DNA of 64,000 bases from Ricordea florida (Eukaryota; Cnidaria; Anthozoa; Corallimorpharia; Ricordeidae). This document shows, piece by piece, positions 15,140-35,683 of the stretch. A program made the translations under genes and the position numbers. The stretch covers positions 20,169,562-20,233,561 of the forward strand of contig OX453280.1 of assembly GCA_949710005.1 (NCBI GenBank), given 5' to 3'. The notes beneath the pieces are model-generated. The model made no database searches. It was not told where the DNA came from and was given only the letters and a program-made list of their open reading frames with translations. Position 1 is the stretch's first letter; every line of letters begins with the position of its first letter.

Positions 15140-15163
15140 CTTCTATCCAGTGTTTGGGTAGAA
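15140..15163. promoter_or_regulatory. Intergenic hairpin before 15139 gene
   Basis: CTTCTATCC and GGGTAGAAG form a 9-bp stem (one G-T pair) with a 6-base loop, directly 5' of the ATG of the 15139 gene. It is one of four hairpins in the same gene-to-gene position in this element. Confidence 0.5.
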
Positions 15164-15209
15164 GGTTTGCAATATTTAAATCAATAGTAAATCTTATCGT
15201 ACGTTATGG

Positions 15210-16178: not shown

Positions 16179-16198
16179 AAGTTTAACGTCGAATCTTT
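16179..16198. repeat. LINE target-site duplication, left
   Basis: AAGTTTAACGTCGAATCTTT is repeated exactly at 21703-21722. The first two A bases may belong to the poly(A) on the right-hand side, so the true duplication is 18-20 bp. Confidence 0.92.
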
Positions 16199-16380
16199 CG
16201 GAGATTTCGTCTCGAATCTTTCGTCTCGAATCGGAGATTGAGGAGAAATCATGGCGTCAAGACGTACTTTTCATGTGCTAGCGTAAAACGCCATAAACAG
16301 ACGCCCTCCACGCAGTAAGAACCGATCCAAGTAAATCACTTCGAATTGTAAGCACTTCTTCTCTGACTAATTCGAATCAA

Positions 16381-17277
16381 ATGCCCGACACCAGGAAGCA
16401 CAAACGTGGAGAACGCGGCTCAACCGAAAAAAGCCCGAACACTTCGAAGAAACCAAACATGGCGGACGAGGACTTCGAAGAAGCCTGCAAGGGAACCACT
16501 GTAACCCTTGACGCAGATGAAGATGAGCCGAGCCTTCTGGAGATAAAGAAAATTCTTATCGGCATTCAAGCAACAATATTTTCCATCAGTCAGGAAAATA
16601 AAGCTTTAAAGAAGGAAATCGAAGAGCTGAAAGTAAGTGCTAATTTCAACGAGAGTGAGCTTAAAGACTTAAAAGACTCGATCCAGAAGGCAAAGGACGA
16701 AAACAAAGCTTTAAAAGATTCCCTAGCTTCCACAGATAAGCAGCTAAAGAACGCTAGAAAGGAGTTAGTAAAACAGAACGAGGAATCTGAAAGACTTAGC
16801 GAAGAACTTGACAATCTAGAGCAGTATACTCGCAAAAATTCATTAGAATTTGTTGGTATACCACAGGACGCTTACTCCAACACAGAAGAGGTGGTGATCA
16901 AAGTAGCAAACGCTCTCAACATCTCCATAAAACCTAAAGATATTGAGATATCTCACAAGCTCAACTACGGCAAGGTAATAATTGCAAAGTTTTGCAGTCA
17001 CAAGGTCAAATCAGCGATTTACAGAGAGCGCACAAAGCTAAAACAAGTTAAAGTCTCCGACCTCTTTCCTAGTTATCCCTCCTCTGGGCAACAGCGAATT
17101 TTCATTAACGAGAACTTAACCGCATTTCGGCGTAGAGTGGTGGAAGAGGCAAACAAGCGACGGAGAGAGGGAACACTAATAAGCGTCTGGACTTTAGATG
17201 GTAAAATATTTGTCAAGACCTCTCCAAGTGGATCACCAACCCGGATTTTTTGCAAGGAAGACCTGGACAATATGTAG
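16381..17277 (+). CDS. LINE ORF1 protein (coiled-coil RNA-binding type)
   Basis: The protein has 298 residues and starts at ATG 16381. The N-terminus is basic and polar. Residues about 55-155 form a long coiled coil rich in Glu/Lys/Leu heptads. Next comes a segment beginning QYTRKNSLEFVGIP, which resembles the RRM-like domain of L1-type ORF1 proteins, and then a basic C-terminal domain with FINENLTAFRRRVVEEA. ORF1 proteins of this type form trimers that coat the LINE RNA and act as nucleic-acid chaperones in cytoplasmic particles. The LTA/RRR region matches the usual L1 ORF1 C-terminal pattern. It sits upstream of ORF2 in the expected order. Confidence 0.9.
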   Translation: MPDTRKHKRGERGSTEKSPNTSKKPNMADEDFEEACKGTTVTLDADEDEPSLLEIKKILIGIQATIFSISQENKALKKEIEELKVSANFNESELKDLKDSIQKAKDENKALKDSLASTDKQLKNARKELVKQNEESERLSEELDNLEQYTRKNSLEFVGIPQDAYSNTEEVVIKVANALNISIKPKDIEISHKLNYGKVIIAKFCSHKVKSAIYRERTKLKQVKVSDLFPSYPSSGQQRIFINENLTAFRRRVVEEANKRRREGTLISVWTLDGKIFVKTSPSGSPTRIFCKEDLDNM

Positions 17278-17681
17278 CAGATCAAGAACCCGTATCTTTT
17301 GAAACATTAAGGTAAAGTCAGGAAAGGGCGTCTAAACTTTAAGGATTAATCGACTACCCCCACAAACTGTTCATTTTTATTTTTTTGTTGCGTGTTTATT
17401 GTCATTCTCTTTTATACCATGTAAACATTATTTTAAATTCGGTTATCTTCACTGTTGTCGTTCTGAGTCAAATATTTTTTAACCGATTTGTCGTCTACAC
17501 AGCTGCACAATGTATTTTTTTCTTTTCTTCCGTCCTCGCACAATATCTCACTTGTTATACTCTAAATTCCAGACCAAAAGCAATACATTTTTAGAAGCAG
17601 AGCGAAGCTAAATAGCCTGTATGCTAATCTGATATTTATGCAAACTAGCCGAATGAAAATTTTTCGATTCCTTGTAAAACA

Positions 17682-20600: not shown

Positions 20601-21437
20601 CCAGTATTCTTTAAGGACTGGTGTGCAAAAGGAATTATTAAAGTGAAACATTTACAAAAACCAGGGAGCGACAACTTTCTCTCTTTGAATGATTTTCAAT
20701 TAAAATACAGCTTAAGTGCCTCTCCTCTTAAATATTACGGGTTAATATCGGCTGTAAAGACCCTCCGCAAAGAAGTGGATGGTCATGATAATAGTCAGGA
20801 GTACAAGCCTTTTTGCACTAAGCTTTTAGAGACTAAAAAAGTAAGTTCACTCGTATACAAAATTCTGACAAGAATCAAAGGCGAAGTTCCAAAAAACAGC
20901 CAAAGGAAATGGCTTCTAGATTGTAACTACTCAAGAAATGAAAACCTCGACTGGAGCTCAGCATATATTTTGACATCACGATGCACCAGGAGTACCAAAC
21001 TGATCGAATTCCAGTTTAAATTTTTACACAGACGTCTCGCAACTAATGACTTTCTATATAAAATTGGGCTTAAGGAAAATGATAATTGTACCTTCTGTCA
21101 AGAAGGCCCAGAGTCATTAATGCATCTCTTCTGGACATGTCACGAGACATCTAACTTTTGGAAAAGAGTATCAGAATGGCTGCAAAGTATAAAACTAATG
21201 TCCAAAACCTCCACCCTATTAAACATTACAGCTTTTGGTCTGAAACCGGAAACGTCAAAATTTGCACTTCAAATTAACTATTGCCTTCTTTTAGCTCGAC
21301 GTCATATCTGGCTAGCCAAATCTAAAGAAATGTCCCCTAACTTTGACCATTATCTATGCTTTCTGAAATCAAGGCTCGAGCTGGAGACAAAAAGCGGCGA
21401 TATGAAAAAATGGGAACCTCTTGCAGAATATATATAA
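17682..21437 (+). CDS. LINE ORF2: AP endonuclease-reverse transcriptase
   Basis: The protein is intact at 1251 residues. The N-terminal AP-type endonuclease has ASLNVRGIGN (residue 6 on), the catalytic LQEAH (about 36), GGDFN (about 138) and TDHS (about 226). The reverse transcriptase follows: GKTPGSDGLPAEF, then FIDFEKAFDSLEW (about 598), RGVRQGCPLSPYLF (about 656) and YADDT (about 700) with the catalytic aspartates. A C-terminal zinc knuckle C-x2-C-x8-H-x4-C (CTFCQEGPESLMHLFWTC) marks the L1/Tx1 group. The protein performs target-primed reverse transcription. All key residues are present and there is no stop or frameshift despite several long A/T runs. Confidence 0.96.
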   Translation: MNLKIASLNVRGIGNNTKRREVFNWLRSKNFSIYMLQEAHCTEKTKDIWTSEWGYKTLFSCCSSNKAGVGILFNNNFNLKILKAFVDPNGRFVICDIETNSKLLTLANVYAPNEDDPDFFQAVFSHLSSFHCEEIIIGGDFNLVLDLVKDKKGGLPRTHKNALKVVQDFCESLDLSDVWRILNPEAKRYTWRQRLSDIHCRLDFFLVSQTSICNVTQADIIPGFKTDHSMITLSLSLHSNPRGNGFWKLNTSLLSETCYLDKIKAAIENTVSEYENDETVNPMLLWEMVKLKVREKSISYAASKKSERKKREEDLVKSIAILEKQLDNGNSSEPPSKNVIEKLNTLKRDLEKIIEYRTKGAILRSKAQWYNEGEKNTKYFLNLESRHFKQGTISQLKINDTEFVTSDVAILSECESFYKSLYTSKEVDGTQSLFFQQVNETVLGLEEQKSCEGPLSEKECAEAVKSMDSGKTPGSDGLPAEFYKVFWKDVSSLLISALNCALESGCLSITQRRGIIKLIPKKDAELYFVRNWRPITLLNTDYKIAAKAIANRIKSVLPRLINKDQTGFMKGRFIGENIRLIDSIIRYAAENNIPGLLLFIDFEKAFDSLEWSFIYESMRYFGFGPSIIKWIKTLYCKTESCVLNNGWSSNFFQIQRGVRQGCPLSPYLFILSAEVLAKAIRNNVNIKGICVNNNEIKISQYADDTTLILDGSEHALLSALNLLDEFSKVSGLKLNEKKTEALWIGSSIGNDKLSLPGMELKWPESKVKTLGLWLSVEPEIAALLNYDEKVEKIRKILSCWKYRRLTLLGRIAVLKSLAASQLVYLLSPLPSNYNALNQINKLFYQFLWNGKGDKIKRKIMINDYCDGGLKMIDLISFNKALKTTWIKKYLDTTNNAKWKFFFDLALKHYGRENIFAGNLNVEDITTSIKATDAFLKEILEVWAEINFEQQIKSQVQFQEQSLWHNSLIRIANKPVFFKDWCAKGIIKVKHLQKPGSDNFLSLNDFQLKYSLSASPLKYYGLISAVKTLRKEVDGHDNSQEYKPFCTKLLETKKVSSLVYKILTRIKGEVPKNSQRKWLLDCNYSRNENLDWSSAYILTSRCTRSTKLIEFQFKFLHRRLATNDFLYKIGLKENDNCTFCQEGPESLMHLFWTCHETSNFWKRVSEWLQSIKLMSKTSTLLNITAFGLKPETSKFALQINYCLLLARRHIWLAKSKEMSPNFDHYLCFLKSRLELETKSGDMKKWEPLAEYI

Positions 21438-21664
21438 TATTCTGTAGGTATTCTGTAATAAGTGAGAATAAGTGAATAAACTTGTGTAAATAGAGTACAA
21501 TGTAGAGCAAGATTTGCATTATCAGTTGTGTAGGCAGTAGTTATGTGTAATCGTAGTGTTAGTAGTAATCGTAGTATAAGTAATGGTTGTATTGTAAGTA
21601 ATGTCAGTAGTGGCGTAAGTGATATTAGTATTGTAAGTAATTACTGTCTTGTCATTTGACTTTG

Positions 21665-21708
<44 letters not shown>

Positions 21709-22014
21709 AACGTCGAATCTTTTGTGGGAGTAAAGATAGTCACCAGTATTAGTCTCAATGATATGGAGCTTGTCCCTATCCGTATCGGTCATAAATATCT
21801 CGTTTATATTGCATAGCGAATATGTACCGGCTCGGAATGTTATTAGGGTTTGATTATCCTCCTTCTTGATTACGCTCTGGCTATCCTTGAAATTCACCAA
21901 TCGTTTGGTTTGTATACTACAATCAAGGAGTTGTATCTCTCGAACATTGTCCAGGGGAGGATCCAAGTACACCCTGGTTTCAGACTCGTATATGGTAACG
22001 CTCAACATTTACAT

Positions 22015-22971
22015 TCAACGACGCCTCTTCTTTAATTCCTCTACAAAGTACACTACAACAGCGAGGATCAATAGCCAAGCGTTCTTCCCTAGGAATGAAA
22101 TGACCTCCCCAGCGGTCTTGAACAGGAAACTCACGATCGCCCCCACCATACCGGGCAATATCTCACCAAGTTTCTTACCGATGGTCTTCAGCCCGTCGCC
22201 CACACCTTTACCCAATTTGGATAGGCCTTTGGAAAGATTAGACACGATAACGCCAATGACCACACTAACAGCACTCACAATTGCAAATACTGTGAACCCA
22301 TATTTCTTGAAGATCGCTTTCACCCGGTCTCGCAATGACATTCGCTTCTGGATTTGCTCATTCTCCCCCTCCAAGTTAGCTATCTCTTGCTCTTGTTCAC
22401 CAATTTGTTCCTCGATAGTCTCTATTTGACTTACTTCTTCTGGGGTTTTCAATGCCTTATCTCGATGGAATCTTACCGTCTCTTTCAATTTACTAACGAA
22501 CCCTTTTTTCTTAGTTATCTCACCATCGTTGGCTTCCACAATTTCTTCCGCGCTTGGACCTAGCTCTTTTGTAATTGTTTTGGGTAATCCTTTGTTCACA
22601 TCACCATACGCATCGAATAATTGGTGCCATACATTTCTATCTGGATCTTTACCAGTAATTTTTACAATGATTCTACCCCATTCATCGTAATTGAAAAGAA
22701 ACTTAGGTTTGGCATTTGGGAATTTACTTACAATCTTAGGCCAGATTGCATCTTTGTTTTCTTCCATAGACTCCATTTCTATATCTTCACGTGGTAATTG
22801 AATATACCCTGATTTACGTCTAGCACCCTTATTTGTGGATGTTTCTAAGACTTTGTCTGGTGTGGGCTGCCTACCAAGTGGCGGGGTATTTTCAAAATCA
22901 TCAGGATCTTCTTGTTTGTTTTCTTCCCCCAACCCGAAAGGATCGCTTTCTTCAGGATCAGCAGTTGCCAT
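22015..22971 (-). CDS. Polinton conserved membrane protein (318 aa)
   Basis: The start is ATG 22971. The N-terminal 60 residues are acidic. A central coiled coil follows (about residues 175-215, EEQIGEQEQEIANLEGENE). Then come hydrophobic segments: one at about 228-250 (VFAIVSAVSVVIGVIVSNL), an amphipathic Gly/Lys stretch (GLKTIGKKLGEILPGMVG) and a last helix (AWLLILAVVVYFVEEL) before the basic tail KKRRR. The Gly-rich amphipathic part next to membrane helices is typical of a recurring animal Polinton protein whose function is not proven. A role in a virion membrane or in membrane penetration is speculative. It is separated by 6 nt from the downstream LINE-split gene. Confidence 0.75.
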   Translation of the reverse strand: MATADPEESDPFGLGEENKQEDPDDFENTPPLGRQPTPDKVLETSTNKGARRKSGYIQLPREDIEMESMEENKDAIWPKIVSKFPNAKPKFLFNYDEWGRIIVKITGKDPDRNVWHQLFDAYGDVNKGLPKTITKELGPSAEEIVEANDGEITKKKGFVSKLKETVRFHRDKALKTPEEVSQIETIEEQIGEQEQEIANLEGENEQIQKRMSLRDRVKAIFKKYGFTVFAIVSAVSVVIGVIVSNLSKGLSKLGKGVGDGLKTIGKKLGEILPGMVGAIVSFLFKTAGEVISFLGKNAWLLILAVVVYFVEELKKRRR

Positions 22972-23008
22972 ATTTGATGTCGAATATGGGAACTTCTAAG
23001 TTAATTTG

Positions 23009-23413
23009 TCACACCCACTTGCTAGCTATATATCCCAGGGCTAACATCCCACCTGAGACATAGGCCATCTCACCCATTCTTTGGTCTCCATTCGGTCGGT
23101 AATAGTCAGAGAATTTAGGAGGATTTCCCATTTGATTGTACAATTTCAGCGCTTCATCCGTCTTCGATATGTTCTCAGAGGCTTGGTCAGCATCACTTTT
23201 CCTCTTATTCATAAAGTCAATATATGCCAAGCGCTTCTCTTGGTACGCAGCGTAATCTTTTTGGTACTTCTCCATTGCTTTGTCATGCCTTTCCCTTTCG
23301 AGTTGGAGATCAGCGGATGATGACCCACTTAGGGCCTTTGCTATATAATTCCCACCAATGAAGGCCGTTGCATTGAAGACTGCACCTCCAAGCATGATCG
23401 CTATACTCGCCAT
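23009..23413 (-). CDS. Polinton conserved bitopic coiled-coil protein (134 aa)
   Basis: It begins with a hydrophobic helix (IAIMLGGAVFNATAFIGGNY) and ends with another (YVSGGMLALGYIASKWV). Between them is a charged coiled-coil hairpin with ERERHDKAMEKYQKDYAAYQ. This layout (membrane helix, RHD-containing coiled coil, membrane helix) recurs in Polintons of many animals. It starts directly after the stop of the 23644-23414 gene (zero spacing), so the two are probably co-transcribed. The function is unknown; a virion-associated membrane protein is a reasonable inference. Confidence 0.78.
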   Translation of the reverse strand: MASIAIMLGGAVFNATAFIGGNYIAKALSGSSSADLQLERERHDKAMEKYQKDYAAYQEKRLAYIDFMNKRKSDADQASENISKTDEALKLYNQMGNPPKFSDYYRPNGDQRMGEMAYVSGGMLALGYIASKWV

Positions 23414-23644
23414 TTATGAATCTATTGTAGGATTTCTTAATACATTTAACTCAATAGTGAAGTGTTCCAACTTGGGAGTGTTCTTCAAATGATCGACTAC
23501 AGCCATACCGAATCCTTTCTCGTCAAAGGATATTACGGACCCATTACTATCTTTAGTTATGAAGTCCCTCAAAATGGGCTCATCTCCCATATGATTATCC
23601 AACGCCACTTTGAATCTTGTATGATCAAATTTCACTGTACTCAT
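23414..23644 (-). CDS. Small Polinton protein (76 aa), unrecognised
   Basis: The start is ATG 23644. The protein is soluble-looking and acidic, without a membrane segment. It alternates short beta-like stretches (SVISFDEKGFGMAVV, HFTIELNVL). It is packed tightly: 3 nt from the gene upstream and no gap to the gene downstream. The close packing and conserved orientation support it as real. No function can be assigned. Confidence 0.6.
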   Translation of the reverse strand: MSTVKFDHTRFKVALDNHMGDEPILRDFITKDSNGSVISFDEKGFGMAVVDHLKNTPKLEHFTIELNVLRNPTIDS

Positions 23645-23647
23645 TAC

Positions 23648-23872
23648 TCAAAGCTCTGGCAACATCTTTTGATCTTCTAAATAAGTTTTGAGGTACATAC
23701 TCGCGGACAAAACAATGACCCATTTGGCATAATTAGCGATACTGGACGATGGATCGCCAATGAACGATTCTTTTTCTCTCAAGACCTTCTTACCCACATA
23801 GCCCACAGCAGCGGAGAGTCCTATGAGAAATACAGAATCTGTAACAGTCTTTACAAGCTTATTTTCTGACAT
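23648..23872 (-). CDS. Small Polinton membrane protein (74 aa)
   Basis: The start is ATG 23872. Two hydrophobic helices are visible: about residues 12-28 (SVFLIGLSAAVGYVGKK) and 48-62 (AKWVIVLSASMYL). It lies in the cluster of four small genes at 23414-24663. I do not recognise it. A role as a virion or host-membrane protein is an inference from hydrophobicity and context only. Confidence 0.6.
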   Translation of the reverse strand: MSENKLVKTVTDSVFLIGLSAAVGYVGKKVLREKESFIGDPSSSIANYAKWVIVLSASMYLKTYLEDQKMLPEL

Positions 23873-23881
23873 TTTGTGTAA

Positions 23882-24343
23882 TTACATCAACTCATCATTT
23901 AAACTATTTTCTATGTTTGGGACGCTTTTGACCTCATTCATGTTCCTGACAGGAGGTGGTTCGAAGGTTGGAACAGGTATGCGTAAGTCGGCTATTTTGT
24001 CCTTGCATCCCGTGTATATGGAATAAGCAGTTATTCCTATTATAGACCCGATTACAAACACATTCTCGAAGGATAAACTGGGTATCCAGGCATTAACATC
24101 CATGGAAGATCCTTCATTATCCTCTTTCTGATTATTTACCAATTCATCCTGCTGCTGCTGCTCCTGCTCCTTTTCTTTCTGATTATTTATCAATGCATCC
24201 CGCTGCTCTTTTTCTTTCAATGCCTCCTTAGCCTTCTTGTGGTAGTCGGCCAGTTTCTTCCCAGCCTCCACTTTCTTAGGATCCTTCACTCTATCCTTGA
24301 CAGCGGGTTCCCTTGTGATTTGCTCAACATTTTGCTCAGCCAT
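23882..24343 (-). CDS. Polinton membrane protein with Gln/Glu-rich helix (153 aa)
   Basis: I chose the ATG at 24343 (MAEQNVEQ). It follows a leader nearly identical to that of the next gene upstream, whose ATG sits at the same spot (MANRG). An in-frame extension upstream would run through the hairpin. The N-terminal half is highly charged, with a Lys/Glu helix and an EQEQQQQDEL stretch encoded by CTG-type repeats near 24145-24170. One membrane helix follows (VFVIGSIIGITAYSIY), then a proline-containing tail. The function is unknown. Confidence 0.65.
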   Translation of the reverse strand: MAEQNVEQITREPAVKDRVKDPKKVEAGKKLADYHKKAKEALKEKEQRDALINNQKEKEQEQQQQDELVNNQKEDNEGSSMDVNAWIPSLSFENVFVIGSIIGITAYSIYTGCKDKIADLRIPVPTFEPPPVRNMNEVKSVPNIENSLNDELM

Positions 24344-24400
24344 GTTTGTATCCCTGTTATCACTAAGCTTTAACTCTCCTAATAGGATTTCTATTAGGAG
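24344..24400 (-). promoter_or_regulatory. Duplicated leader with hairpin, copy A
   Basis: The leader (plus-strand reading GTTTGTATCCCTGTTATCAC) ends in the hairpin CTCCTAATAG/CTATTAGGAG (24375-24400, 10-bp stem, 6-base loop). It sits between the stop of the 24663 gene and the ATG of the 24343 gene. About 46 bases match copy B at 24664-24720 almost perfectly. It may be a promoter/terminator unit or an RNA processing signal. Confidence 0.6.
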
Positions 24401-24417
24401 ATTTTTTGAACTAACAT

Positions 24418-24663
24418 CTACCAAAACCAATGACGTTTGTTATACAACCAACATAATCCAATTCCGACCATCGCACCTTTCAAATATGAAGATACTTTAC
24501 GAACGGACTCCTCAAGCTCTCTTGTTTCATCATCTTTATCTTTTTGTATTATTTTCCGACACTGTCTATCTATTTTGTTTTTACAGTATTCTTCAAAATA
24601 TTCTTCACAATATTTATCCACAGTCGCTCTATCAATAACTTCAGTAACTCCTCTGTTAGCCAT
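24418..24663 (-). CDS. Small Polinton membrane protein (81 aa)
   Basis: The start is ATG 24663. It is a charged helical N-terminal part (YCEEYFEEYCKNKIDRQC) followed by one C-terminal membrane helix (GAMVGIGLCWLY) and an aromatic tail. It shares its leader and first codons with the 24343 gene, suggesting partial duplication of the upstream region. I do not recognise it. Confidence 0.6.
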   Translation of the reverse strand: MANRGVTEVIDRATVDKYCEEYFEEYCKNKIDRQCRKIIQKDKDDETRELEESVRKVSSYLKGAMVGIGLCWLYNKRHWFW

Positions 24664-24720
24664 GTTTGTATCCCTGTTATCACTTACCTTTAACTCTCCT
24701 AATAGGGTGTCTATTAGGAG
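24664..24720 (-). promoter_or_regulatory. Duplicated leader with hairpin, copy B
   Basis: It carries the same GTTTGTATCCCTGTTATCAC block as copy A and a hairpin with the same 10-bp arms (24695-24720) but a different loop. It lies between the stop of the 25642 gene and the ATG at 24663, at the same distance as in copy A. Confidence 0.6.
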
Positions 24721-24748
24721 AAGTAAGTCTTAATTATTCAGTGTTCTA

Positions 24749-25642
24749 TCACAATTTCATCTTCTTCTTCTTCTGATTCTGGTTCTGGTTCTGGTTCTTG
24801 TACCTTATTGGGAACATGCGAAAACGAGTATTGTTGTTGTAATCACTTGGAGTGAAATTCATCTCAGAAACACGAAGACGAGCTGAAGCGCCATAGCTGG
24901 ACTGCCCGTGTGACCCCCAGAATATACCATCCCAATGGACAACAGGATGACCAAAACCGGTTACATAATTATCAGGCTGCCACATGTATTCAAGTGGGTG
25001 AAAAATTTTATCATCTGGGCCATATACAGAAGTTTTGGATTTTATGTCCTTACCCTTACCCCAGGTAATGAACTTTAGGTAGGCACGCTCTGGACTGGAC
25101 TTATCCTTTGTCTTCTCACCTGTTAGTTGGTTTGTGATGTTTGGGTAATCGTATATGGGTTTTACAGCATAAGACCAATCATTTTCACTTTTGGAAGTTG
25201 TGTATGCATTGAAAGTGGCGGGTGGTACTAAACGCTCGGACCTGGGTTTTTTGCAAAACTTTTTGAGTGAATCCAATGTGATCCCCATTACGTTATTTAA
25301 TGCTTCACGAGTCTTCATCTCTTCGGTTGTGGGGCTATCCATAGTCTCAATCGATGTCATTGGGTAGAAAATCTGGAAACCCTCCAATGTTTCAAGTCTG
25401 TGATTCTTTTTCTCGGTTCCAAATGGCCATACGCCAGATATGCCTGTAAAGAATTGCTTGGCCAATTCAATGAATATTGGGCGTTTCACACCGTTTGGAC
25501 CTTCTACATAAACATCTGAAGTAACCCATTCATTTGGTACTTTACTTTTGCCTTCGGTGAAAGAGTTCTTCTTAGGTTCGGACACAACGATGGTGCTCCA
25601 GTCAAAATCAGAGTCAAGTGAAATGAAGATTGGTTCAGTCAT
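24749..25642 (-). CDS. Polinton protein, possible ssDNA-binding-like (297 aa)
   Basis: The start is ATG 25642. The body has mixed alpha/beta character. The C-terminal third contains a patch resembling DUF2738/DUF5871-type viral proteins: an AYLKF strand, HPLEYM, then DGIFWGSHGQSSYGASARLR and SEMNFTP. Those families are thought to include single-strand DNA-binding proteins of large DNA viruses. The resemblance is by motif only and needs a profile search. The protein ends in a low-complexity Gln/Asn-Lys tail (NQNQNQNQKKKK) encoded by a TTCTGG-type repeat at 24765-24800. Confidence 0.6.
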   Translation of the reverse strand: MTEPIFISLDSDFDWSTIVVSEPKKNSFTEGKSKVPNEWVTSDVYVEGPNGVKRPIFIELAKQFFTGISGVWPFGTEKKNHRLETLEGFQIFYPMTSIETMDSPTTEEMKTREALNNVMGITLDSLKKFCKKPRSERLVPPATFNAYTTSKSENDWSYAVKPIYDYPNITNQLTGEKTKDKSSPERAYLKFITWGKGKDIKSKTSVYGPDDKIFHPLEYMWQPDNYVTGFGHPVVHWDGIFWGSHGQSSYGASARLRVSEMNFTPSDYNNNTRFRMFPIRYKNQNQNQNQKKKKMKL

Positions 25643-25692
25643 TGTTCAACAAGTACCTTTCGGTTATGACATAGTACATACCTATCTTTAAG

Positions 25693-25719
25693 CCTCTTAG
25701 TAGGTCTTCTACTAAGAGG
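25693..25719. promoter_or_regulatory. Intergenic hairpin before 25642 gene
   Basis: CCTCTTAGTAG and CTACTAAGAGG form an 11-bp perfect stem with a 5-base loop, between the stop at 25753 and the ATG at 25642. It has a similar shape and position to the hairpins at 24375 and 24695 but a different stem sequence. Confidence 0.55.
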
Positions 25720-25752
25720 TTTACAATAGTGTTTCATATGGAAGTTGGGTCA

Positions 25753-26433
25753 TTACGTCCATAATTGCTCGGCTTCTCTCTTTTGCTCGTTATCGAAGCA
25801 CCAATCCCACACACGATCGGGGTGCCACGTCATAGGCATTAGTTCATCCCGCAGACGTTTGTAGAAGTTTGATTTATGGTAGTGCTTGTATGTATTCAAC
25901 ATTTTGATTGTAATGTGTGAAACTTCAGACTCCATATCTTTTGCAAACTCCTTTACCACAAAGCCATACATAGCAGTATCTTCCAAACCCTCTTCCCCAT
26001 CCCAATCCCCATTGTCCATTGCTCTGAGTCTATCCTCGTGGTTAATAGATTCATCAAACCGTCTATCGTAGATGTCCTTGTAACTATAACGAAAAACGGG
26101 TTGAAGTGTATCCCTCAAATTATATCTCAATCTCGCTCTCAAAACTCTCACAGTACGCGCGATCAGCGTATCTACAGAGTCAGTCTCATCATCATAATGG
26201 TCTACAACGGATTGATATGGTTGTTTATATGGTTGTCGATCCGGGTCTAGCTTGAAATTAACTTCAAGTCTTGTGAAACTAGGGTTGATTAACTCGAAGG
26301 CATTAACAATCTCTGGCCTTACTCTCTCGAAGAACTTCTCAAAGTCAGAGTCATTCTCACCATATATCGTAAATATGTGAAACTCAAGTTCGTTTTGTTG
26401 CATCTTGTTGTTGTGCTTTTGCTTATGGTACAA
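25753..26433 (-). CDS. Polinton protein with WHPxRxWDWC motif (226 aa)
   Basis: The start is ATG 26433, or the in-frame ATG at 26403 (MQQNEL), which removes a basic leader. The C-terminal end contains LMPMTWHPDRVWDWCFD. A very similar WHP-x-R-x-x-DWC ending is known from proteins of algal giant viruses (my recollection, not searched). The middle is rich in Arg/Asp, with ARTVRVLRARLRYNLRD. There is no membrane segment. The neighbouring genes are the probable DNA-binding protein and the repeat-tailed protein. No function is known. Confidence 0.6.
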   Translation of the reverse strand: MYHKQKHNNKMQQNELEFHIFTIYGENDSDFEKFFERVRPEIVNAFELINPSFTRLEVNFKLDPDRQPYKQPYQSVVDHYDDETDSVDTLIARTVRVLRARLRYNLRDTLQPVFRYSYKDIYDRRFDESINHEDRLRAMDNGDWDGEEGLEDTAMYGFVVKEFAKDMESEVSHITIKMLNTYKHYHKSNFYKRLRDELMPMTWHPDRVWDWCFDNEQKREAEQLWT

Positions 26434-26466
26434 CCAATCTTGAAGACACTTTTCTTAGAATCCATT

Positions 26467-27096
26467 TTAGTCCTCAAATTGTGTTGGAGTATTGCTTAGG
26501 TCTTGCTCAAGTTGTGTTGGAGTAGTGCTTAGGTCCTGCTCAAGTTGTGTTGGAGTAGTGCTTAGGTCTTGCTCAAGTTGTGTTGGAGTAGTGCTTAGGT
26601 CCTGCTCAAGTTGTGTTGAGGCACTGTTGGATCCATGCTCTCTTAACTTGAAGTGCTTTGCAAATTGAATAAATGCCGAAAGTAATGCCGTGAGTCTTCC
26701 ACCTTTGAGTACAAGTAATCCGGATATATTTGAGATCTCTTTCATTATCAATTGATCGTTTTTACAGTCTCTCACAAGAGCGTCTTGATCATCTATATTT
26801 CCGAAATTGCTCAAACCCCGATCTACAGCCTTAGCTATCAATTGAAAAGAAGAGTCCGCCAAGCCATCGGCAATCTTCTTGCCGGACACTACTTGGTACC
26901 TTTTGTAATACTTCTCCACATCCTTATCCGATAGTTTGGTTGTGTCAGAGAGGTCCATAACCACACCAGTGTATTCTTTCGTTGAACCAAGGCACGCCAA
27001 GATTGAAAGAGATTCCCTCTTTGGCTCCAAATCAATGATTGGTGTTGTTGCATCAACTGATGCTTCACCGTTCAATATATCTTCAGGGTTAGCCAT
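26467..27096 (-). CDS. Polinton protein with 11-residue C-terminal repeats (209 aa)
   Basis: The start is ATG 27096, 2 nt after the ATPase stop. The first 150 residues are a globular, mostly helical domain I do not recognise. The C-terminus consists of four copies of TQLEQDLSTTP (last copy SNTP) and a truncated fifth, TQFED. The repeat is encoded by 33-bp units. Its tight coupling to the packaging ATPase suggests a role in assembly or packaging, an inference from position only. Confidence 0.65.
   Translation of the reverse strand: MANPEDILNGEASVDATTPIIDLEPKRESLSILACLGSTKEYTGVVMDLSDTTKLSDKDVEKYYKRYQVVSGKKIADGLADSSFQLIAKAVDRGLSNFGNIDDQDALVRDCKNDQLIMKEISNISGLLVLKGGRLTALLSAFIQFAKHFKLREHGSNSASTQLEQDLSTTPTQLEQDLSTTPTQLEQDLSTTPTQLEQDLSNTPTQFED
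26470..26620. repeat. 33-bp coding minisatellite
   Basis: The units read CAAGTTGTGTTGGAGTAGTG plus 13 more bases, in four and a half copies, and keep the reading frame of the 27096 gene. The units are nearly identical, so the array is young or being homogenised. Confidence 0.85.
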
Positions 27097-27098
27097 GT

Positions 27099-27728
27099 TT
27101 ATGCACCAGACGCTGGTATCTCTAAATATTTTTCAAAAGGGTGGCGCAGTGAAAAGCAAAGTCTGGCGTATTTTTCGTTTTCGAGTAACTTCTTGTACCG
27201 TTTGCGTTTATCAACATCCAAAGCACCACCATATTCCTCAAATAACATTTTCATCGCGGTTTCAGACGGGTTGTAAAACGATACCACACATGCGACATTC
27301 TCTCGGAATGGTTTCGAGATCGATGTGAGTTGTTGGGTGAGAACCGACACAGATATGCCAAGATGCCTCCCGGAAAACGCCAGATTGATGAATTTGTTTG
27401 ACCGGTTCTTCAAGTCTTTCGAAACAGCGCAATCGTCCAGTATTATGAGTGTGTTCTCACCCGAGAATAAGGTTGAGCAAAGCGTTAGCAAATAGTCAAT
27501 TTCGTCCTCATCACTAGAGTCTGGTGAGAGTACCCAAAATCTCTTGTCCCCCTTTGCAAAGCCTCTGTAAGTCTTGTTATGGCTATAAATGGGGCAAATC
27601 AAGACAATATAGTCGAACACGCCCCTAAAGTGTCCTCGAAGCTGGTCCACCAGGTATTGAGTCTTTCCACAATTCGTAGGTCCCGTAATGATACAGTTGA
27701 ATGGGATTTTGTCCACTAACTCATTCAT
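27099..27728 (-). CDS. Packaging ATPase (FtsK/HerA-type, A32-like)
   Basis: The protein is intact at 209 residues. Walker A is GPTNCGKT at residues 16-23. Walker B is TLIILDDC at 93-100, followed by a sensor-like SVLTQQ near 150. Size and motifs match the genome-packaging ATPases of Polintons, virophages and other PRD1-adenovirus lineage viruses, which pump DNA into preformed capsids. It sits just downstream of the major capsid gene (13 nt) and just upstream of the 27096 gene, as expected for a morphogenesis block. All catalytic residues seem present. Confidence 0.93.
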   Translation of the reverse strand: MNELVDKIPFNCIITGPTNCGKTQYLVDQLRGHFRGVFDYIVLICPIYSHNKTYRGFAKGDKRFWVLSPDSSDEDEIDYLLTLCSTLFSGENTLIILDDCAVSKDLKNRSNKFINLAFSGRHLGISVSVLTQQLTSISKPFRENVACVVSFYNPSETAMKMLFEEYGGALDVDKRKRYKKLLENEKYARLCFSLRHPFEKYLEIPASGA

Positions 27729-27741
27729 ACTTGGATTATAT

Positions 27742-28977
27742 CTAGTACGCTATCTCGTTTAAGTTTGATTTAATAATTTTCATGGCGGCGTCAGCAACCA
27801 CGAGCATGTAGCAGGTAAGAACCCTACCTCCTCTCTTCTCCCTGTTAATCTCGAGTCTTATACCATCGCGAGTACTAGTTAGCTCCAAACCGTTTCCATG
27901 AACATGATTGTCCGGGTAACTCCTCAGATCGATCCACAAAGCAAACTTATTCGTATAGAAGTCAGCCTCCTTGATGGAATCATCGATACCAACTCGTTTA
28001 ATTATAGCCTGCCATAAATCAGTTGGTATCATGCCTTTCGAATAAAGTTTGTTTGGTACTCCATCTTTGTCAATCTTAACCGATGTGATCTTTGGGTTTG
28101 CAAAACTCTCAGAGTCCCTAGCACCTGCTGCATAAGGAGCTGTGAAAATACATAGTATGCCAGTCATGGATTTCCTAGGCACGTTAATATGCTCATTAAT
28201 CACACCATCAGTATTCTCAGAGATTGGAAACGTTTTGTGAAGAAGTATCTTCTCGTATAAGAAAGCCCTTCCAATCTGATACGAGGAAATAGCTTGACTG
28301 GCTAATCGGTCACTTGATATGCAATGATATTCCAGCTCCATATTTGTTAATTTGTAATCAGGTGGTGTTTCAACGTTTGAATAAACGACGACATCAGAAA
28401 CCGGAGCTAGAGTTATTTCAAATTTGAGTGGATGTGGTAAGGCTTTTGGATAGAAGACTCCATGATCTTTCAGTATTGTGTGGTCTAATGGTATTTCGTA
28501 CCTGGTGTTATGGACCGCACCTATAGTATTTTCTGCTGCATTTGAGGTAACCTTGTCCCCGGCATTGGTTCTAATTTTCCTCACATTCTCGGATGATATG
28601 CCCTGTCTCAATCTGTTATTGCGATCGGTCTCTGACAAAAACAAATCGTGATAAGTCTTGAATAAATCAAACCTATTAAGGTCCTCTATGATTTCACCTC
28701 CGAATAGAACCTTGAATCATGAAACGAGGTTTCTTCCCAAGTTGTTAACAAGTGTGTTGTTCTTGTGGCCTGTTACACTCATATCGAAAGTGATGTACAC
28801 GCTGCCAGGCACAATCACCAGGTTGTCGGTCAGTTTTGGTATTTCAATGTATAATGTCTCACCAGGATTGGCTGATGAGAGATTTAGCGTGATCCGATTT
28901 AATGAGGCCTCGGCCCTCAAACCTTTACGCATCCTGGGAACACGATTAGGATCAAGAATGTCTGATATTTCAGCCAT
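27742..28977 (-). pseudogene. Major capsid protein (double jelly-roll type), premature TGA
   Basis: The start is ATG 28977. The frame stays open over 411 codons except for one TGA at 28719-28717 (codon 87), after which it continues in the same frame to 27742. Segments visible include IVPGSVYITFDMSV, VNNLGRNLVS, DHTILKDHGVFYP, ITLAPVSDVVVYS and VPRKSMTGILCIF. They match the conserved pattern of Polinton major capsid proteins, which form the pseudo-hexameric capsomers. A single-base transition from an arginine codon could explain the TGA, though readthrough cannot be excluded. It is divergent from the integrase, with only 25 bp between start codons, so a shared promoter region is likely. Confidence 0.88.
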
Positions 28978-29002
28978 TTAAATGCAGTTAATCTTGTTGT
29001 AA
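28978..29002. promoter_or_regulatory. Divergent capsid/integrase intergenic region
   Basis: Just 25 bp separate the start codons of the minus-strand capsid gene and the plus-strand integrase. The sequence includes the palindrome CATTTAAATG overlapping the capsid ATG. Promoter elements for one or both genes must overlap this segment or the coding regions. Confidence 0.45.
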
Positions 29003-29992
29003 ATGTCTAATGACGATGTTTTAAGTCGATTATACTACTCTTCTGATGGATACTGGAAAGGATACTCGGCCATACCAAAGTTGGCGAGTGCAGCCAAAGT
29101 AACTGAAAGTGTTGCTAGAGATTGGTTGGAGAAGCAAGCATTGTGGCAAATATATCTTCCTCCACCGAGATATGTACCCAGACAACATTGGGTCGTTGGT
29201 AAGCCAAATCAAATTCATCAGGCGGACTTGTTGTTTCTTCCTCACGATACAGTGAGAAGAAAAACATACCGCTATGCGCTGGTTGTGATTGATATTGCTT
29301 CTAGGTACAAGGATGCTGAGGCACTGACCTCGAAAGATAGTGGTGAAGTGGCCACGGCGTTTGAGAGAATTTATGCTCGGAAGCTAAAGTGGCCAAAGAC
29401 ATTAATGGTGGATCCCGGTAAAGAATTCATGGGCAATGTCAGTCACTTGATGAATAAGCATCAAGTAGACATACAGCGAAGTAAAGCTGGTAATCATCGA
29501 GCGCAGGCTTTTGTAGAGAGGGCTAATAGAACGATTGGTGAGAAATTATTTAGTCATCAATATGCACAAGAGATGGTGAGTGATGTTAGGTCCAGGGTTT
29601 GGGTGAAAAGGCTGCCCGCTATTATGAAGACTTTGAATTCTGAACCCACGCGTATCACAGGTAAAGAACCCGATGAAGCGTTGGAATTGAAAGAGATTGA
29701 TATTAAGCCTATGGAGTACAAGAGAGCTGTAGGCTTGAATGAGAAGAGGTTACCCCCGGGAGTTGAGGTTAGGTATTTGTATTCGCCCGGCGAAGGTGAA
29801 GGGGGTGACAAACGAAGAGCCACTGATCCTATATGGAGCCTTGAGGTTTATGATATAGCGAGAACTGTAATTTCACCAGATCAGCCAGTGGTGTATTATT
29901 TGGATGGAGTATCAAAGCGAGGATTTGTACGTGAGGAACTTCAAGTTGTTCCTGATGATACTGAATTACCACCTGGTAGAGTACTTAAGTGA
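29003..29992 (+). CDS. Retroviral-type DDE integrase (Polinton)
   Basis: The protein is intact at 329 residues, with ATG at 29003. The rve core has Asp75 (HQADLLFL), Asp137 (MVDPGKEF) and Glu172 (AFVERANRTIGE), with 34 residues between the last two, close to the D,D-35-E spacing. The C-terminus has a small beta-rich region with YYLDGVSKRGFVREELQVV, resembling the SH3-like/chromo-like tails of such integrases. It inserts the linear Polinton DNA and creates the 6-bp duplications seen at both ends. It is the only plus-strand gene in the central block. Its 3' end overlaps the convergent TFIIB-like gene by 27 bp. Confidence 0.95.
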   Translation: MSNDDVLSRLYYSSDGYWKGYSAIPKLASAAKVTESVARDWLEKQALWQIYLPPPRYVPRQHWVVGKPNQIHQADLLFLPHDTVRRKTYRYALVVIDIASRYKDAEALTSKDSGEVATAFERIYARKLKWPKTLMVDPGKEFMGNVSHLMNKHQVDIQRSKAGNHRAQAFVERANRTIGEKLFSHQYAQEMVSDVRSRVWVKRLPAIMKTLNSEPTRITGKEPDEALELKEIDIKPMEYKRAVGLNEKRLPPGVEVRYLYSPGEGEGGDKRRATDPIWSLEVYDIARTVISPDQPVVYYLDGVSKRGFVREELQVVPDDTELPPGRVLK

Positions 29993-30796
29993 CAATGAGA
30001 TGTTCACCATTTCACGAACTGTCTTCATCAATGAAATCTCCGAAATTTTAACTTTACTTGCAAAGACACTCTTTGTCATACCTATTTGATTTTTATACTC
30101 CTGGTTCATACATAAGTAAAAGAAGACAATACTCGCTGCAATTATGCTGCTAGTACTGCGCTCAAGAATCTGTGATGTTGCTTCAAAGTACTTGACAATG
30201 GACAAAATACGTCTGTGATGAGATTCATCAACCCCAGTAACTCTCATTAACCAGGGAATAAGTTTCTCTGGTGTGACGTGATTGGTTCTCACCTCTGGGA
30301 ATGCTTCCAAGTACATTTGTAAACCATATGACATGGCTCTTTGCTTGAGTCCAAACAAATTTCTAATGTAATCTAACGTACGATATTCACCAAATTCTTG
30401 GTATGTATAAAACAAGCATGAAGCCACCAAAGACGTACGAATCTGACCGCGATTGTTACACTTAAACTTTAGAATATCTTGATACTTGGCTTCTATGATA
30501 TCGATCATCATAGAAGACACATTCAAGTTATGTCTCTCGAATACATTACGAACTCCCTTTAGTCTTGATCTGCGAAGATCACACCTACTAGCTGAAAAGT
30601 CATACATCCATTCTCGTTGAGAGTAGTCCATCGATTCTAGTTCAGTCTTACAGAGGCTACAAAGAACAATCCCTGAGTTATCCCTATACACACTTTCATG
30701 CTTACAAACCTGTTCGTCTTCCTCATCAGCTTTCTTGAACATAGACTGAAAATGATCGGCAAGGCTGTGATAAGTTTCCTCTGAATCGTAATCCAT
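29966..30796 (-). CDS. TFIIB-like transcription factor
   Basis: The protein is intact at 276 residues, with ATG at 30796. An N-terminal zinc-ribbon-like motif has C31-x-H33 and C46-x2-C49 (CKHESVYRDNSGIVLCSLC). A DYSQREWMYDF segment follows, similar to the linker after the TFIIB ribbon. Two cyclin-like repeats come next: residues about 85-165 (RGQIRTSLVASCLFYTYQEF, IRNLFGL) and about 175-265 (SSIIAASIVFFYLC, FASKVKISEISLMKTVREM). This is the layout of TFIIB, which links promoter DNA to RNA polymerase II. Large nucleocytoplasmic viruses encode such factors; I do not know of one as a standard Polinton gene. It could redirect host polymerase to element promoters. A TATA-like stretch (TATATGTATAAATAAA) lies at about 30818-30833, just upstream. 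Confidence 0.8.
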   Translation of the reverse strand: MDYDSEETYHSLADHFQSMFKKADEEDEQVCKHESVYRDNSGIVLCSLCKTELESMDYSQREWMYDFSASRCDLRRSRLKGVRNVFERHNLNVSSMMIDIIEAKYQDILKFKCNNRGQIRTSLVASCLFYTYQEFGEYRTLDYIRNLFGLKQRAMSYGLQMYLEAFPEVRTNHVTPEKLIPWLMRVTGVDESHHRRILSIVKYFEATSQILERSTSSIIAASIVFFYLCMNQEYKNQIGMTKSVFASKVKISEISLMKTVREMVNISLSLKYSTRW

Positions 30797-30835
30797 ACCG
30801 ACTTTGTCTAGTTGGATATATGTATAAATAAATCC

Positions 30836-33800
30836 TTAAGTTTTTACCGAAATTAGAGTCCTAAAGTGACCATATGCATATGTGTGTATCCCATCCTCCC
30901 TTACCACCCTTTTGTCGTCTTCGCATGATAGTGCCACCTTGTTCACAGTCTCTGTGTACACGTCGTGCAGATGACTCCTGATGATATTCATTGTCCTCCT
31001 CTGTGATTTTTGATTGAAGAGGCAATCCTTGTAGTCGTTGAAGCTTATGCTCTTTCTCACGACCGCTTTCTTCACACCCTTACACTTCTTTTCCTCCTTT
31101 CCCTCATCCATCATGTATGAATATAGTTTAGCCCTGAGACCTACGAATTCTATGATCTGTTGGCCACCTGCTTCATCCTTGAACATACCCCCGACTTTCT
31201 TGTTCACGCCCACCTCAATGCCGGATGGATGATCTTCAGGGTAGTTGCTGGTGTCGAACCGGTCTCTCACATCTAGGCTAATGTCTTTGTAGAAGTCGTC
31301 CGTCTCCACCTCGTATGCCAGTGAATCAGTGTCTGTAAATAACAACTTGGCCTTGCTACCATACTTGGGCTTGATGTAGTTATAGTGGAAGTCGTACATT
31401 ATAGTCTTGCTTATCTCAAGGACTGAAAAGCCTAGGTAAATGGGTTTGTCCAACACCAACTTTGTCTTCTTCATTTGTACTGCAACTAGATTCTCACAAA
31501 AGATCGTGCTGTGGTGGTAATTCGGCTTCGATACCAACTTCTTGGCTTTTGACTCATCAGTGACCAAACGAACGTCCACCCTGTTCCTTACGTTCTCCAT
31601 AGTTTTCCCAAAGACTGAGTTGTTCATCAACTTGAAGAAATCCTTCTCGAAGTCGTTTGTAGCTTTCGTCCTTAGTTCGGTATTCAAGTCGATATAGGGC
31701 TTCAGCCACGCGGACTCTTTGAATGTGATGCCTCTATGTATCTTGTAGACTTTTAGCCCGAGACTTAAATATTGTCTCAGCGTCTCGTGGTGAATAATGT
31801 ATTTTCGTTTGTGCCTTAGGTTTGGAATTAGCTTATCCACGCCATTCACCGTAACTCTCTCTGGTGCTAATGGATAGTCATTATGCAGTTTGTGAAGGTG
31901 CTTTGGATACATCATGTCAACCTCTAGTATACATGGCATATCTTTCCACTTCAATACAAGCTCTTCTTCAGTCAACCATCGAAAGTCATGTGTTGGTAAA
32001 GGTTTACTCATTGCATATCCGTACAAACCATTCGCATCCAGGTATGTGATGTACTTTGTTGGTAATGATGGGTCATAATCTTTCATGTATGGATTGTTGG
32101 CTTTACCATACCTAGTTGAGATCATGGAGATACCCCCTCGAATGCCATCCTCAACCATGAGTAGCATGTCAGGGTCCTTCAAAAGTTCCAAACTCACATT
32201 GGTCATTTTCAGGGCCGCATCCCACGCCAATCCAGGTGCAGTGTAGTACCAAGCTGGATCCAAGTCGTAGTTCTTCCTACAAACATCTCTGAAGTTCTCG
32301 AAGACATCAGCCAACAATAAGACATCCAGCTCAAGGTATAGATCGTGGTATTCCCTGAAGCTCTCAATCCCAAAGGCTTTCCACACGTTTTGAGCATGTT
32401 GGTAATCCTCGTCCGATATTTCAGCGTCGTAGAGCTTCGAGTAGAACTCATCCTTTGGTGGGAGATGAGTTTCACTGAGCTCATCAAACCCATCAAACCA
32501 ATCGTACGGAAATACCCCCTTCCTAGTGAGTAACTGCAGGTCTGTGCCATCTTCCATCACCCTTTCAAACCAACTCGTTACATTCACCAGAGAAGATTGT
32601 GGTAGGTTGTCAACCAACCTTCTGAGGCCCGCTGCCATAAATCGAAAGCTATCAATGAACCTAATTCCCCGTTTAATGCTAGCCGTGTTCCCTTCCTTGT
32701 TCTTATAAGAGTCGACAACAATCTCCTTCGTGAACGAAATGTACTTTTCATCGTTGATTGGTATGCAATCTACCTTACCTTTCGATTCCCCTATATTCCT
32801 CACAAATAAATGACCATCGTATCCGGATAGGTTATGGAATATAACTGGTACAAATTTGGGCACCTTGTAATTCAAATTACACTCTCCATGCGCGGCGCCT
32901 CTATACTTTCCAGTAAGATGACAATGGTCTAATACCTTATCATGGCTAATCATCGATCCACAAATGTGACAGTGTGTGGCATTTTCATAGGCTATTTTCT
33001 CATCCTCACTAACATGAGGATTTTTGGGTAGCTTGAACCTATCATAAATTTGTTTGATATCTGACTCCAAACTCTCCATAAACATCTTGGGTACATCTTC
33101 GTCTGGTGATTCAGCTGTGTGACTTACAAGTTTAGGTTCGAATATAGCGCTATCAAAGCACTTGATCAGATAACAAAAACCTGATGGTTTATGCTTCTGG
33201 TATCTATTGGTAAAGCTTCTACCCTCATCTTGGTAACACGTGTCTATCTTTTCAGTGTAGCACTCAAAATCTGCATACACAACAAACGGGACCTCCATCT
33301 TTCTGTTGCGATTTTTGAAACCGAAGAACTGCGGGCTTCCATCTTCGTTGATAGGGACTTCCATCTTAACTGCTTCATGATTGTTGCAATACTCTAGATG
33401 CTTGTCCAGGGAGGATTGTGACTTGAATGGATTAAGACATCTATGGCAGAAGTATACTACGGATTTATGTTTGTTGACTTGTGAAGCTAATAATCTACTC
33501 AAACTTAATCCAACAGTAGTGGTTAGTTTTACTGTTGGATAATAAAAGCAAGTTTATCACTGTCGCCTCTCGCCGTTTACTAATTCTCAAAACGCTTACC
33601 TCAGACTCGTATCCATATAGGTTAATGGCGTAAGGGTTTTGCTTCTCAAACTTAGCAATGTCCCTTAGTGTAACAGGGAACTCCATTCCCGACCAATCAA
33701 ACCTCTCAGAGTTTCCTCTCATCTCATCATTCAATCTTTCACCGTGATTCTCTTTGGGAAATACAGCAGATGTCACAGCCCATTTGAAACACTCATTGTC

Positions 33801-34695
33801 CTTCTCGTTCTTGACATTGATTATAGCCTTCTTCTCAGCCAAAACCTTTGGTAGAGGTATGTAAGAAGTCCCAGAGAGAGGCTCAAATGGATTAATGCTT
33901 ATATCAAAGTACTCAACTCGATCAAATTGCCATCCAGACTTTTCACCTTCAAATCTCGCAACCTTTTCAAGTTGTAATTCCGTCATTGCATCGAATAACT
34001 CAGATAGATCAGTTGAATCCGTTACTATTTCATTGTTAGTATGAAAGTACCCCTCAGTCTCTTCAATCTTACCCGTAGCAAGATTCTCTTTTATGAATGT
34101 GCAAGTTAATACAAACTTCACCTTGATGGGTTTACTTCTAGTATAAAGTAACTCCACAACCTTTGGTTTTATTTTCTTGATGAAGTCTTGAGGACCGTAC
34201 CCCCTTTTACCATCGATCCGATAGGTCTTGAAGAACCCTTTCAGTGCCTTTTCCCTTTCGTTAACTCTGAACGGCTCTAGTACAGCCCAGATACTTCTTA
34301 CTTCCTCCTTCAACTTCCTGATTCTTTCGTTAGCGGGCTTTTTGATTCTCTTTCACATAATTCAAAATCCAATTCGCAAACTTGTTTATTTTCTTCTGTA
34401 CTCTTTTGTTATAATCTGAAACAAGTGTTTTCCACCGACTAGGGACACTTGGAGGTACATATTTGGTAGGCCTAAGAATCGGAACGCTTATTTCTGGTAC
34501 AGGCTCATCGAGAATATGCGATGAGTCCCCACTACTAGCACTAGGTACCTCCTCAAGCATGCCCAGCGCCTCTAGTAACTCGTTCCTACGCATCTTGTAA
34601 TACTTTGGTATCTTGCGTTCCTTGGCAATGGCGCGGAGCTCTTTGACAGTTTGATTTTGATTTGGCATGATGAGTTCTTGAATGTGTAGTAACAT
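30836..34695 (-). pseudogene. SAP domain-protein-primed DNA polymerase B, two frameshifts
   Basis: Three minus-strand frames appear to be one gene. 34695-34330 encodes the SAP-like domain (in the right TIR). 34342-33495 encodes a middle region (YIPLPKVLAEKKAIIN, NPYAINLYGYES). 33502-30836 encodes the polymerase proper, 888 codons. Breaks lie near an A5 run at about 34343 and near 33500. The polymerase part has a C2H2-like finger (CHRCLNPFKSQSSLDKH) and the exonuclease motif YADFECY. It also has an HNH-like zinc insert (CHICG, DHCHLTGKYRG), motif A DANGLYG (about 487), motif B NNSVFGKT (about 624) and motif C TDTDS (about 721). It replicates the element, probably by protein priming. The second break directly follows a palindrome at 33508-33540. 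Alternatives are programmed frameshifting or base-call errors. Confidence 0.88.
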
Positions 34696-34794
34696 TCCTT
34701 TAAGACGATAGGATCGATTTTGGAATTAGCACGCGTGCAGGATTTTTGTGTGTTTGTCTTTAAGTCGCTGTCCCAGAACCCGCCTTTTGCAACT
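34529..34794 (-). repeat. Polinton terminal inverted repeat, right
   Basis: It is the reverse complement of 12774-13039, 266 bp. It encodes the SAP-like N-terminus of the SAP-polymerase gene (ATG at 34695 or 34668). The similarity stops abruptly at 34529, where the two terminal genes diverge. Confidence 0.93.
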
Positions 34795-34796
34795 AC

Positions 34797-35683
34797 TCGT
34801 ACTAACACTTAAATCAGTAGAAAAGTCCTCCATGCGATGTTTCTTATCCAGGTTGGCCACAGAAGTTCTTCGGTTTCACATCATGGATTCGTCAATTTAT
34901 TCTGTTTTAGTAGTAGTTTCGTTCAATAACGAGTACTCATTTCGCTCATATAAGTTCTCATTCAAGTGCTAATTTCGCTCTATGAGTTCTCATCAAAGCT
35001 TACTACATTAGCAAGAGATTTTCTCATCTTCAGATCACTTTCGAGCCAACTGAAATTCATACACTGCTTGTAATCTTGGGGGCGGTCGATGGCGGTCGAT
35101 GTCGGAAAAGCGAATAGTTATCATCTGTTCACGTTTAGCGCCTGGCCGAGTAAAAGGCTCATGAAATTGAGTCTCCAAGTTGGTTATTGTCCTAACTGGA
35201 AACATTTAAACTCCTTTTGATTTTAGTAAGACCGCTAATGAGGCCCTGTTAGTGAGGTTCTTTATGTCGCGCGTCTGAGTTTCAAACCTTTTCAACGTCG
35301 CAATTTCGGAAGATCGAAGGTCGCTGTCGTAATTTCCCGTGAGCGGCTCGTCGTTCGTCGCCATTTCAGGTCCTTTATGTCGCCGTTTCAAGGCCATGTC
35401 GCTTTTCGAAATTTACCCCTAACAGGGCCTCGCTAATCGTCCTCTTAAGCTACAAAATCATTACAAACTCTGGCAACGGTACGATACACTTTCAGCGTGA
35501 ACTTTCATCAACAGACTTCCGTGACTTCGGTCACGACAATTGTCGTCTTCATATCGGTGCCCCCGAGTTCTATCCGACTAATTACGAAGATGTCTACACT
35601 GGAGTGAGTGAGTGAGTGACAATTTGCATATCGGAGTCCCCACAAAAACTCGCAAATACGCTTCGCGTATCCACGAGTTAAAA
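34797..35683 (-). mobile_element. Helitron-derived repeat, copy 2, right part
   Basis: It continues copy 2 after the Polinton. It is nearly identical to 10935-11829 in the same orientation, down to the terminal hairpin at about 35655-35679, with a shorter (GTGA)n tract. The first six bases are the right target-site duplication TCGTAC (34797-34802). Confidence 0.85.

Follow-up and report, generated by a model that had tools for sequence, protein, structure and literature searches.

Can an animal transposon carry the factor that selects its own promoters? The question is raised by a stretch of the genome of the corallimorpharian Ricordea florida (GenBank assembly GCA_949710005.1, contig OX453280.1, positions 20,169,562 to 20,233,561 of the forward strand), whose 64,000 nucleotides (nt) are referred to as a whole as the window. 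It contains a Polinton in which an initial annotation had recognized a gene for a protein resembling the transcription factor TFIIB. TFIIB is the bridge between TBP-bound promoters and RNA polymerase; its ribbon is the part that docks on the polymerase, and its cyclin core is the part that binds TBP. Our analysis provides good support for the view that this Polinton carries, among its resident genes, a TFIIB of giant-virus type. The gene is likely used to steer transcription of the element, a use for which the sequence offers a candidate promoter box.

29966..30796, minus strand: TFIIB-like gene, 276 amino acids (aa); ribbon at residues 31-49, short linker at 63-72, repeats at about 82-171 and 176-271

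The gene had been described as free of stops and frameshifts, and its coordinates proved exact: 276 codons and a TAA form one open frame on the minus strand, and the plus strand of 29966-30796 is interrupted by numerous stops. The earliest in-frame ATG (30796) lies about 40 nt past the TAA (30836) of a polymerase-like frame. The TFIIB-like gene and a plus-strand integrase frame are convergent, and their 3' ends overlap over the final 27 nt.

An iterated profile of the encoded protein (P0001) matched 151 database proteins at E<=0.1, beyond chance. Together with the predicted fold, these matches bear out its membership in the TFIIB family and confirm, at the level of profile and model, the TFIIB homology of the 276-residue protein; the objection that no profile match would be found does not hold. 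Of the 151 matches, 120 are listed. The alignment used here comprises 126 rows out of 135 protein ids, with nine short proteins (P0007, P0009, P0010, P0028-P0032, P0132) outside it. The anticipated CxH...CxxC ribbon is present as C31-x-H33 ... C46-x-x-C49, and these predicted zinc ligands are retained in 126, 125, 125 and 126 of the 126 aligned rows, respectively. Two cyclin-like repeats, likewise anticipated, appear as helical repeats at residues 82-171 and 176-271 of the predicted model. The evidence for the proposed TFIIB-like linker is mixed. Its motif, E62-W63 ... S-R71-C72, is aligned, the profile pairing E62-W63...R71-C72 with EWR...DPSR of human TFIIB; its length falls about eight residues short of that in most relatives, and it is poorly modelled in the predicted structure (confidence blocks of 50 and 54). 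Cellular TFIIB, archaeal TFB and Brf1/Brf2 are only 10-14% identical to the Polinton protein and gave no match to it as a single sequence. Weak unrelated names returned for P0001 by single-sequence searches of Pfam, NCBIfam and PDB were set aside as chance. In PHROGs, P0001 matched a single family of unknown function (E 1.7e-8). The family phrog_20431, annotated as 'unknown function', was matched by 114 of the 126 aligned TFIIB-type sequences and is therefore very likely TFIIB.

Where does this protein come from? A fold search of BFVD, run with an earlier predicted model possessing a predicted local distance difference test (pLDDT) value of 78, placed the TFIIB of Marseillevirus LCMAC102 (P0047) at the top of 217 matches (40% identity, E 8.7e-18, template modelling score 0.66), followed by the TFIIB of Marseillevirus marseillevirus (22% identity), which has the same fold. 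Among the 31 matches at E<=0.001, 19 carry names of TFIIB-type factors, four have another or no functional name, and eight are nameless; 18 of the 19 stem from eukaryotic large DNA viruses and one from an archaeal virus. The suggested link to the transcription machinery of giant viruses is thus supported in a narrower form than first stated, as a marseillevirus-type relationship. The LCMAC102 protein shares with the Polinton protein the fold, the ribbon ligands and the EW...RC linker motif, but its linker is longer, and its N-terminus bears an additional CxH...CxxC segment. The available part of PMC6401483 describes LCMAC102 as a giant virus that has an RNA polymerase of its own and is represented by one contig of 395,459 nt; the protein table lists its contig with 315,776 nt.

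This kinship would also fit a satellite-like arrangement, in which the factor serves a helper by recruiting the polymerase of a co-infecting giant virus, so that the Polinton genes are read in the factory of the helper. We consider this unlikely and know of no helper for animal Polintons. A marseillevirus TFIIB is indeed the nearest viral relative, the portion of PMC6401483 at hand lists both RNA polymerase subunits and TFIIB for LCMAC102, and transcription regulation is common to virophage and giant virus in the system described in the accessible text of PMC11464507; according to the same text, however, the small partner of that system encodes no transcription factors.

In the tree of all 126 rows, the Polinton protein groups with six close copies, P0011 and P0018 within a set of 26 rows, and LCMAC102 falls into the other set of 100. 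The longest contigs of the 26-row set measure at most 20.9 kb in 24 of 25 cases and 63.7 kb in one, and those of the 100-row set include nine of 94-463 kb. This weakly hints at small viruses or elements in the former set versus giant viruses in the latter, weakly because the extent of a contig differs from that of a genome. With human TFIIB and archaeal TFB as the two outgroups to root a tree of 68 of the 126 rows, the Polinton rows were nested among viral and metagenomic sequences, with a very long outgroup branch. A clade uniting six Polinton rows with human TFIIB was rejected in a tree of 32 of the 126 rows and one outgroup (approximately unbiased test, p-AU 0.006; 0.0165 with ten further relatives added), a result weaker than its p-value because the human piece is incomplete, its branch has 5.58 changes per column, and the host is not human. 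Eight further sequences, which share 71-89% identity with the Polinton protein in the alignment, reside on contigs of differing sizes. As far as this can be tested, recent capture of a host TFIIB gene by this single Polinton copy therefore fails as an explanation and appears highly improbable: nothing in its favour emerged, several diverged copies exist, a marseillevirus is the closest relative with a name, and kinship to viral proteins is closer than that to human TFIIB, judging from the rejected clade and the nested position of the Polinton rows.

The nine Polinton-side rows, which are grouped by the tree and for only one of which the DNA context is known (P0008 and P0018 look incomplete), share two peculiarities. 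None of them has the extra N-terminal CxH...CxxC segment, compared to 12 of the 17 and 68 of the 100 other rows. From W63 up to R71 they count 5-9 residues, compared to 16 in 16 of the 17 and 77 of the 100 others. A protein with a retained cyclin core, a shortened linker and no such N-terminal segment could act as a decoy that competes with host or viral TFIIB and lowers other transcription instead of driving that of the Polinton. Retention of the four ribbon ligands in nearly every row speaks against this rather improbable role, for which a polymerase-docking ribbon would be superfluous.

Scans of IMG/VR with the TFIIB alignments, and also with the polymerase-like and capsid frames of the element, yielded no relative, and neither did a scan of prokaryote genomes; phage records held no relative of P0001, P0047 or P0013. 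In one metagenome protein, P0133, the TFIIB domain is joined to a SAP domain (E 2e-12 for SAP).

Residence of the gene in a Polinton follows from the boundaries of the insertion.

12771..34796, no strand assigned: whole Polinton, 22,026 bp including a nested long interspersed nuclear element (LINE); inverted repeats, target duplication, empty paralogous site
12771..13040, plus strand: left terminal inverted repeat, about 270 bp, encoding the N-terminus of a Rho_N-domain gene
34528..34796, minus strand: right terminal inverted repeat, encoding the same Rho_N segment
12765..12770 (left) and 34797..34802 (right), no strand assigned: 6-bp target site duplication TCGTAC
16260..21704 (ends approximate), plus strand: nested LINE with poly-A tail; second open reading frame (ORF2) at 17649-21437, RVT_1 E 1.8e-41

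Self-comparison of the window shows that the inverted repeats are 97.8% identical over 279 columns. The flanks of the element are part of a tandem unit of about 1.84 kb, an adjoining copy of which lacks the insertion. Since this empty copy and the two 600-base flanks, once joined, match at 99.2% over 1201 columns, and since TCGTAC is present on both sides of the element and once in the empty site, the Polinton is a 22,026-bp insertion with a 6-bp target duplication. Duplications of this length have been reported for intact Mavericks (PMC8097293, from the part available). Inverted repeats, a 6-bp target duplication, an integrase, an A32-type ATPase and polymerase motifs (read by eye) are the Polinton/Maverick traits present here.

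If a TFIIB-like factor selects promoters, the genes of the Polinton should share a signal. Within 60 nt upstream of the ATG, TTAAA was found in 10 of 14 Polinton genes, at -25 to -49; the boxed starts lie between 12900 and 29003. In five neighbouring windows of the same size, the corresponding counts were 0, 1, 0, 1 and 0 of 14, and any 5-mer reached ten genes in 0, 1, 1 and 4 of 400 shuffles for upstream windows of 50, 60, 80 and 100 nt, respectively. G at -3 and A at -2 of this common candidate box each occur at 8 of 12 sites; two of the 12 come from a near-duplicate pair and two from one gene. We took 15 start codons, each the first ATG of its frame; g24418, which is also boxed, was excluded from the count, its upstream region being a duplicate of that of g23882. 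The exception is the left terminal gene, for which the second ATG (12900) was used; TTAAA is only 8 nt ahead of its first ATG (12873). The frames 13596-14486 and 15846-16256 lie outside this count, and the boxes of the ATPase gene and g21652 fall within the preceding coding frame. The TFIIB-like gene itself differs from the boxed genes:

30797..30856, minus strand: the 60 nt preceding the TFIIB start codon; TTAAA absent, A/T-rich stretch of TATA-like character present (identified by eye)

Lack of TTAAA and presence of a TATA-like run suggest that the TFIIB-like factor may be made first. TBP and RNA polymerase subunits were unmatched among the Polinton frames scanned, so the partners of the factor must come from elsewhere, host TBP and RNA polymerase II being the likely ones. 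We consider it on balance probable that the gene is a Polinton resident of marseillevirus type that steers the element's own promoters via the host polymerase. The factor would be produced first, from a TATA-like promoter readable by the host machinery; it would then dock on TBP-bound DNA at Polinton promoters with TTAAA 25-49 nt before the start codon, and recruitment of host RNA polymerase II through its zinc ribbon would allow joint expression of the remaining Polinton genes. Contact with TBP and polymerase, recognition of TTAAA and the order of expression are parts of this scheme that we infer.

Several observations, including the lack of a match to TBP or polymerase subunits in the Polinton frames scanned, weigh against this scheme. 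As a single sequence, P0001 found no TFIIB match in Pfam, NCBIfam or PDB; the fold match to LCMAC102 has a root-mean-square deviation of 13.4 across 250 columns; and the shortened linker implies that functions of the linker region may be lost. The TTAAA box was found post hoc and is not tied to the TFIIB-like protein. It is missing from 4 of 14 genes, including that for TFIIB, and 4 of these 14 upstream windows contain its reverse complement TTTAA. Among random 60-nt windows, 15.7% of those from the host flank contain TTAAA, compared to 6.5% on the minus and 2.2% on the plus strand of the Polinton, and 6-mers upstream of Polinton genes were not enriched over shuffles.

The genes surrounding the TFIIB-like gene are the following.

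29003..29992, plus strand: retroviral-type integrase of 329 aa; rve E 1.5e-7 with 32.1 bits, slightly below the cut-off (32.6); transposase family of PHROGs, E 5.9e-8
27099..27749, minus strand: packaging ATPase matching Pox_A32 (E 2.8e-13; 50.3 bits, cut-off 22.8)
27742..28977, minus strand: putative major capsid gene, named from position and size only; in-frame TGA at 28717-28719
30836..33553, minus strand: frame of 905 aa resembling a family-B polymerase, a name based on motifs recognized by eye
33495..34352, minus strand: frame located upstream of the polymerase-like one, which it overlaps in a different reading frame (frame break); unmatched in Pfam

The integrase had no PDB match at 0.1. 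The motifs in 30836-33553 are those that we take to be polymerase motifs; no library confirmed this identity, and Pfam, PDB and PHROGs gave no polymerase match. Pfam and PHROGs agree on an endonuclease VII-like domain at about residues 182-227 of this frame. The putative capsid frame had no match in Pfam, PHROGs or PDB, and the families of major capsid, minor capsid and protease were unmatched in the frames scanned (Pfam; PHROGs for part of the frames). Damage to the neighbouring genes, as described initially, was evident from the TGA in the capsid gene and the polymerase region split over two frames; a LINE has been inserted as well.

Such damage invites the explanation that the TFIIB-like gene is a passenger, which an ancestor acquired from a giant virus and which is now undergoing decay along with the Polinton. 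The fragments P0029 and P0030, for both of which the longest contig has 10,984 bases, may be one broken copy, and four of the nine close proteins (P0007-P0010) are shorter than 250 residues, which may reflect contig ends or decay; the tails of P0004 and P0009 differ from those of the other close copies. We nevertheless regard a mere passenger as improbable: the frame is intact, the other five close proteins (P0002-P0006) have 276-300 residues, and copies sharing 71-89% identity with the Polinton protein conserve the ligands as well as many core residues.

Further features of the element and its surroundings deserve mention. A frame with a common Rho_N-domain N-terminus begins in each inverted repeat; that of the left repeat runs on into CxH...CxxC-like repeats, and that of the right repeat sits just upstream of the polymerase region. 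Because this N-terminus is shared, a single start region serves two different genes. The nested LINE, with two open reading frames, accounts for about 5.4 kb of the Polinton and seems to split one of its genes (frames 21652-22008 and 15846-16256). A 64-bp repeat (24338-24401 and 24658-24721, 94% identical) lies directly upstream of two genes and contains the palindrome TCTCCTAATAG...CTATTAGGAGA. Outside the Polinton, an intact rhodopsin-family receptor frame (36830-37717; 7tm_1 E 4.8e-30) adjoins the element and points to an animal host. Two tRNA matches are present on the minus strand at 47671-47752 and 47083-47164 (a strong one of 69.1 bits and a weak one of 30.7 bits), and both ends of the window (1-6000 and 54000-62700) are flanked by large repeats that reach about 3 kb in length and are 86-93% similar.

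In the accessible portions of the literature, TFIIB is assigned to giant viruses (PMC12638062, PMC6401483, PMC11464507, PMC12085832). For CpV-BQ1, the virus-encoded TFIIB has been proposed to redirect host RNA polymerase (PMC12085832, available part); unlike the Polinton, among whose scanned frames no TBP was matched, CpV-BQ1 is a large virus that has two TFIIBs along with a TBP. The 'Ziftr' zinc-finger protein is considered a putative transcription regulator in some adintoviruses, which are Polinton-related animal viruses (PMC11071296, available part); in contrast to the Polinton TFIIB, it is remotely similar to zinc fingers of the CTCF type and is not a general initiation factor. We did not find a Polinton TFIIB described in the open-access literature searched, which does not prove its absence from print, nor was one mentioned in the accessible parts, supplements aside, of PMC12721341, PMC12220804, PMC11071308, PMC11071296, PMC4642659, PMC10120064, PMC8097293 and PMC4028283.

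We tentatively propose, as a generalization that may well prove too broad, that some animal Polintons have a promoter system of their own, in which an early marseillevirus-type TFIIB, produced from a TATA-like promoter, selects a TTAAA class covering most other genes, with machinery shared or exchanged with giant viruses. A general transcription factor of giant-virus type in a Polinton would be a concrete gene common to both groups. It would make the choice of its own promoters by a Polinton testable, and the combination of TFIIB with TTAAA boxes may serve as a simple marker for screening other Polintons.
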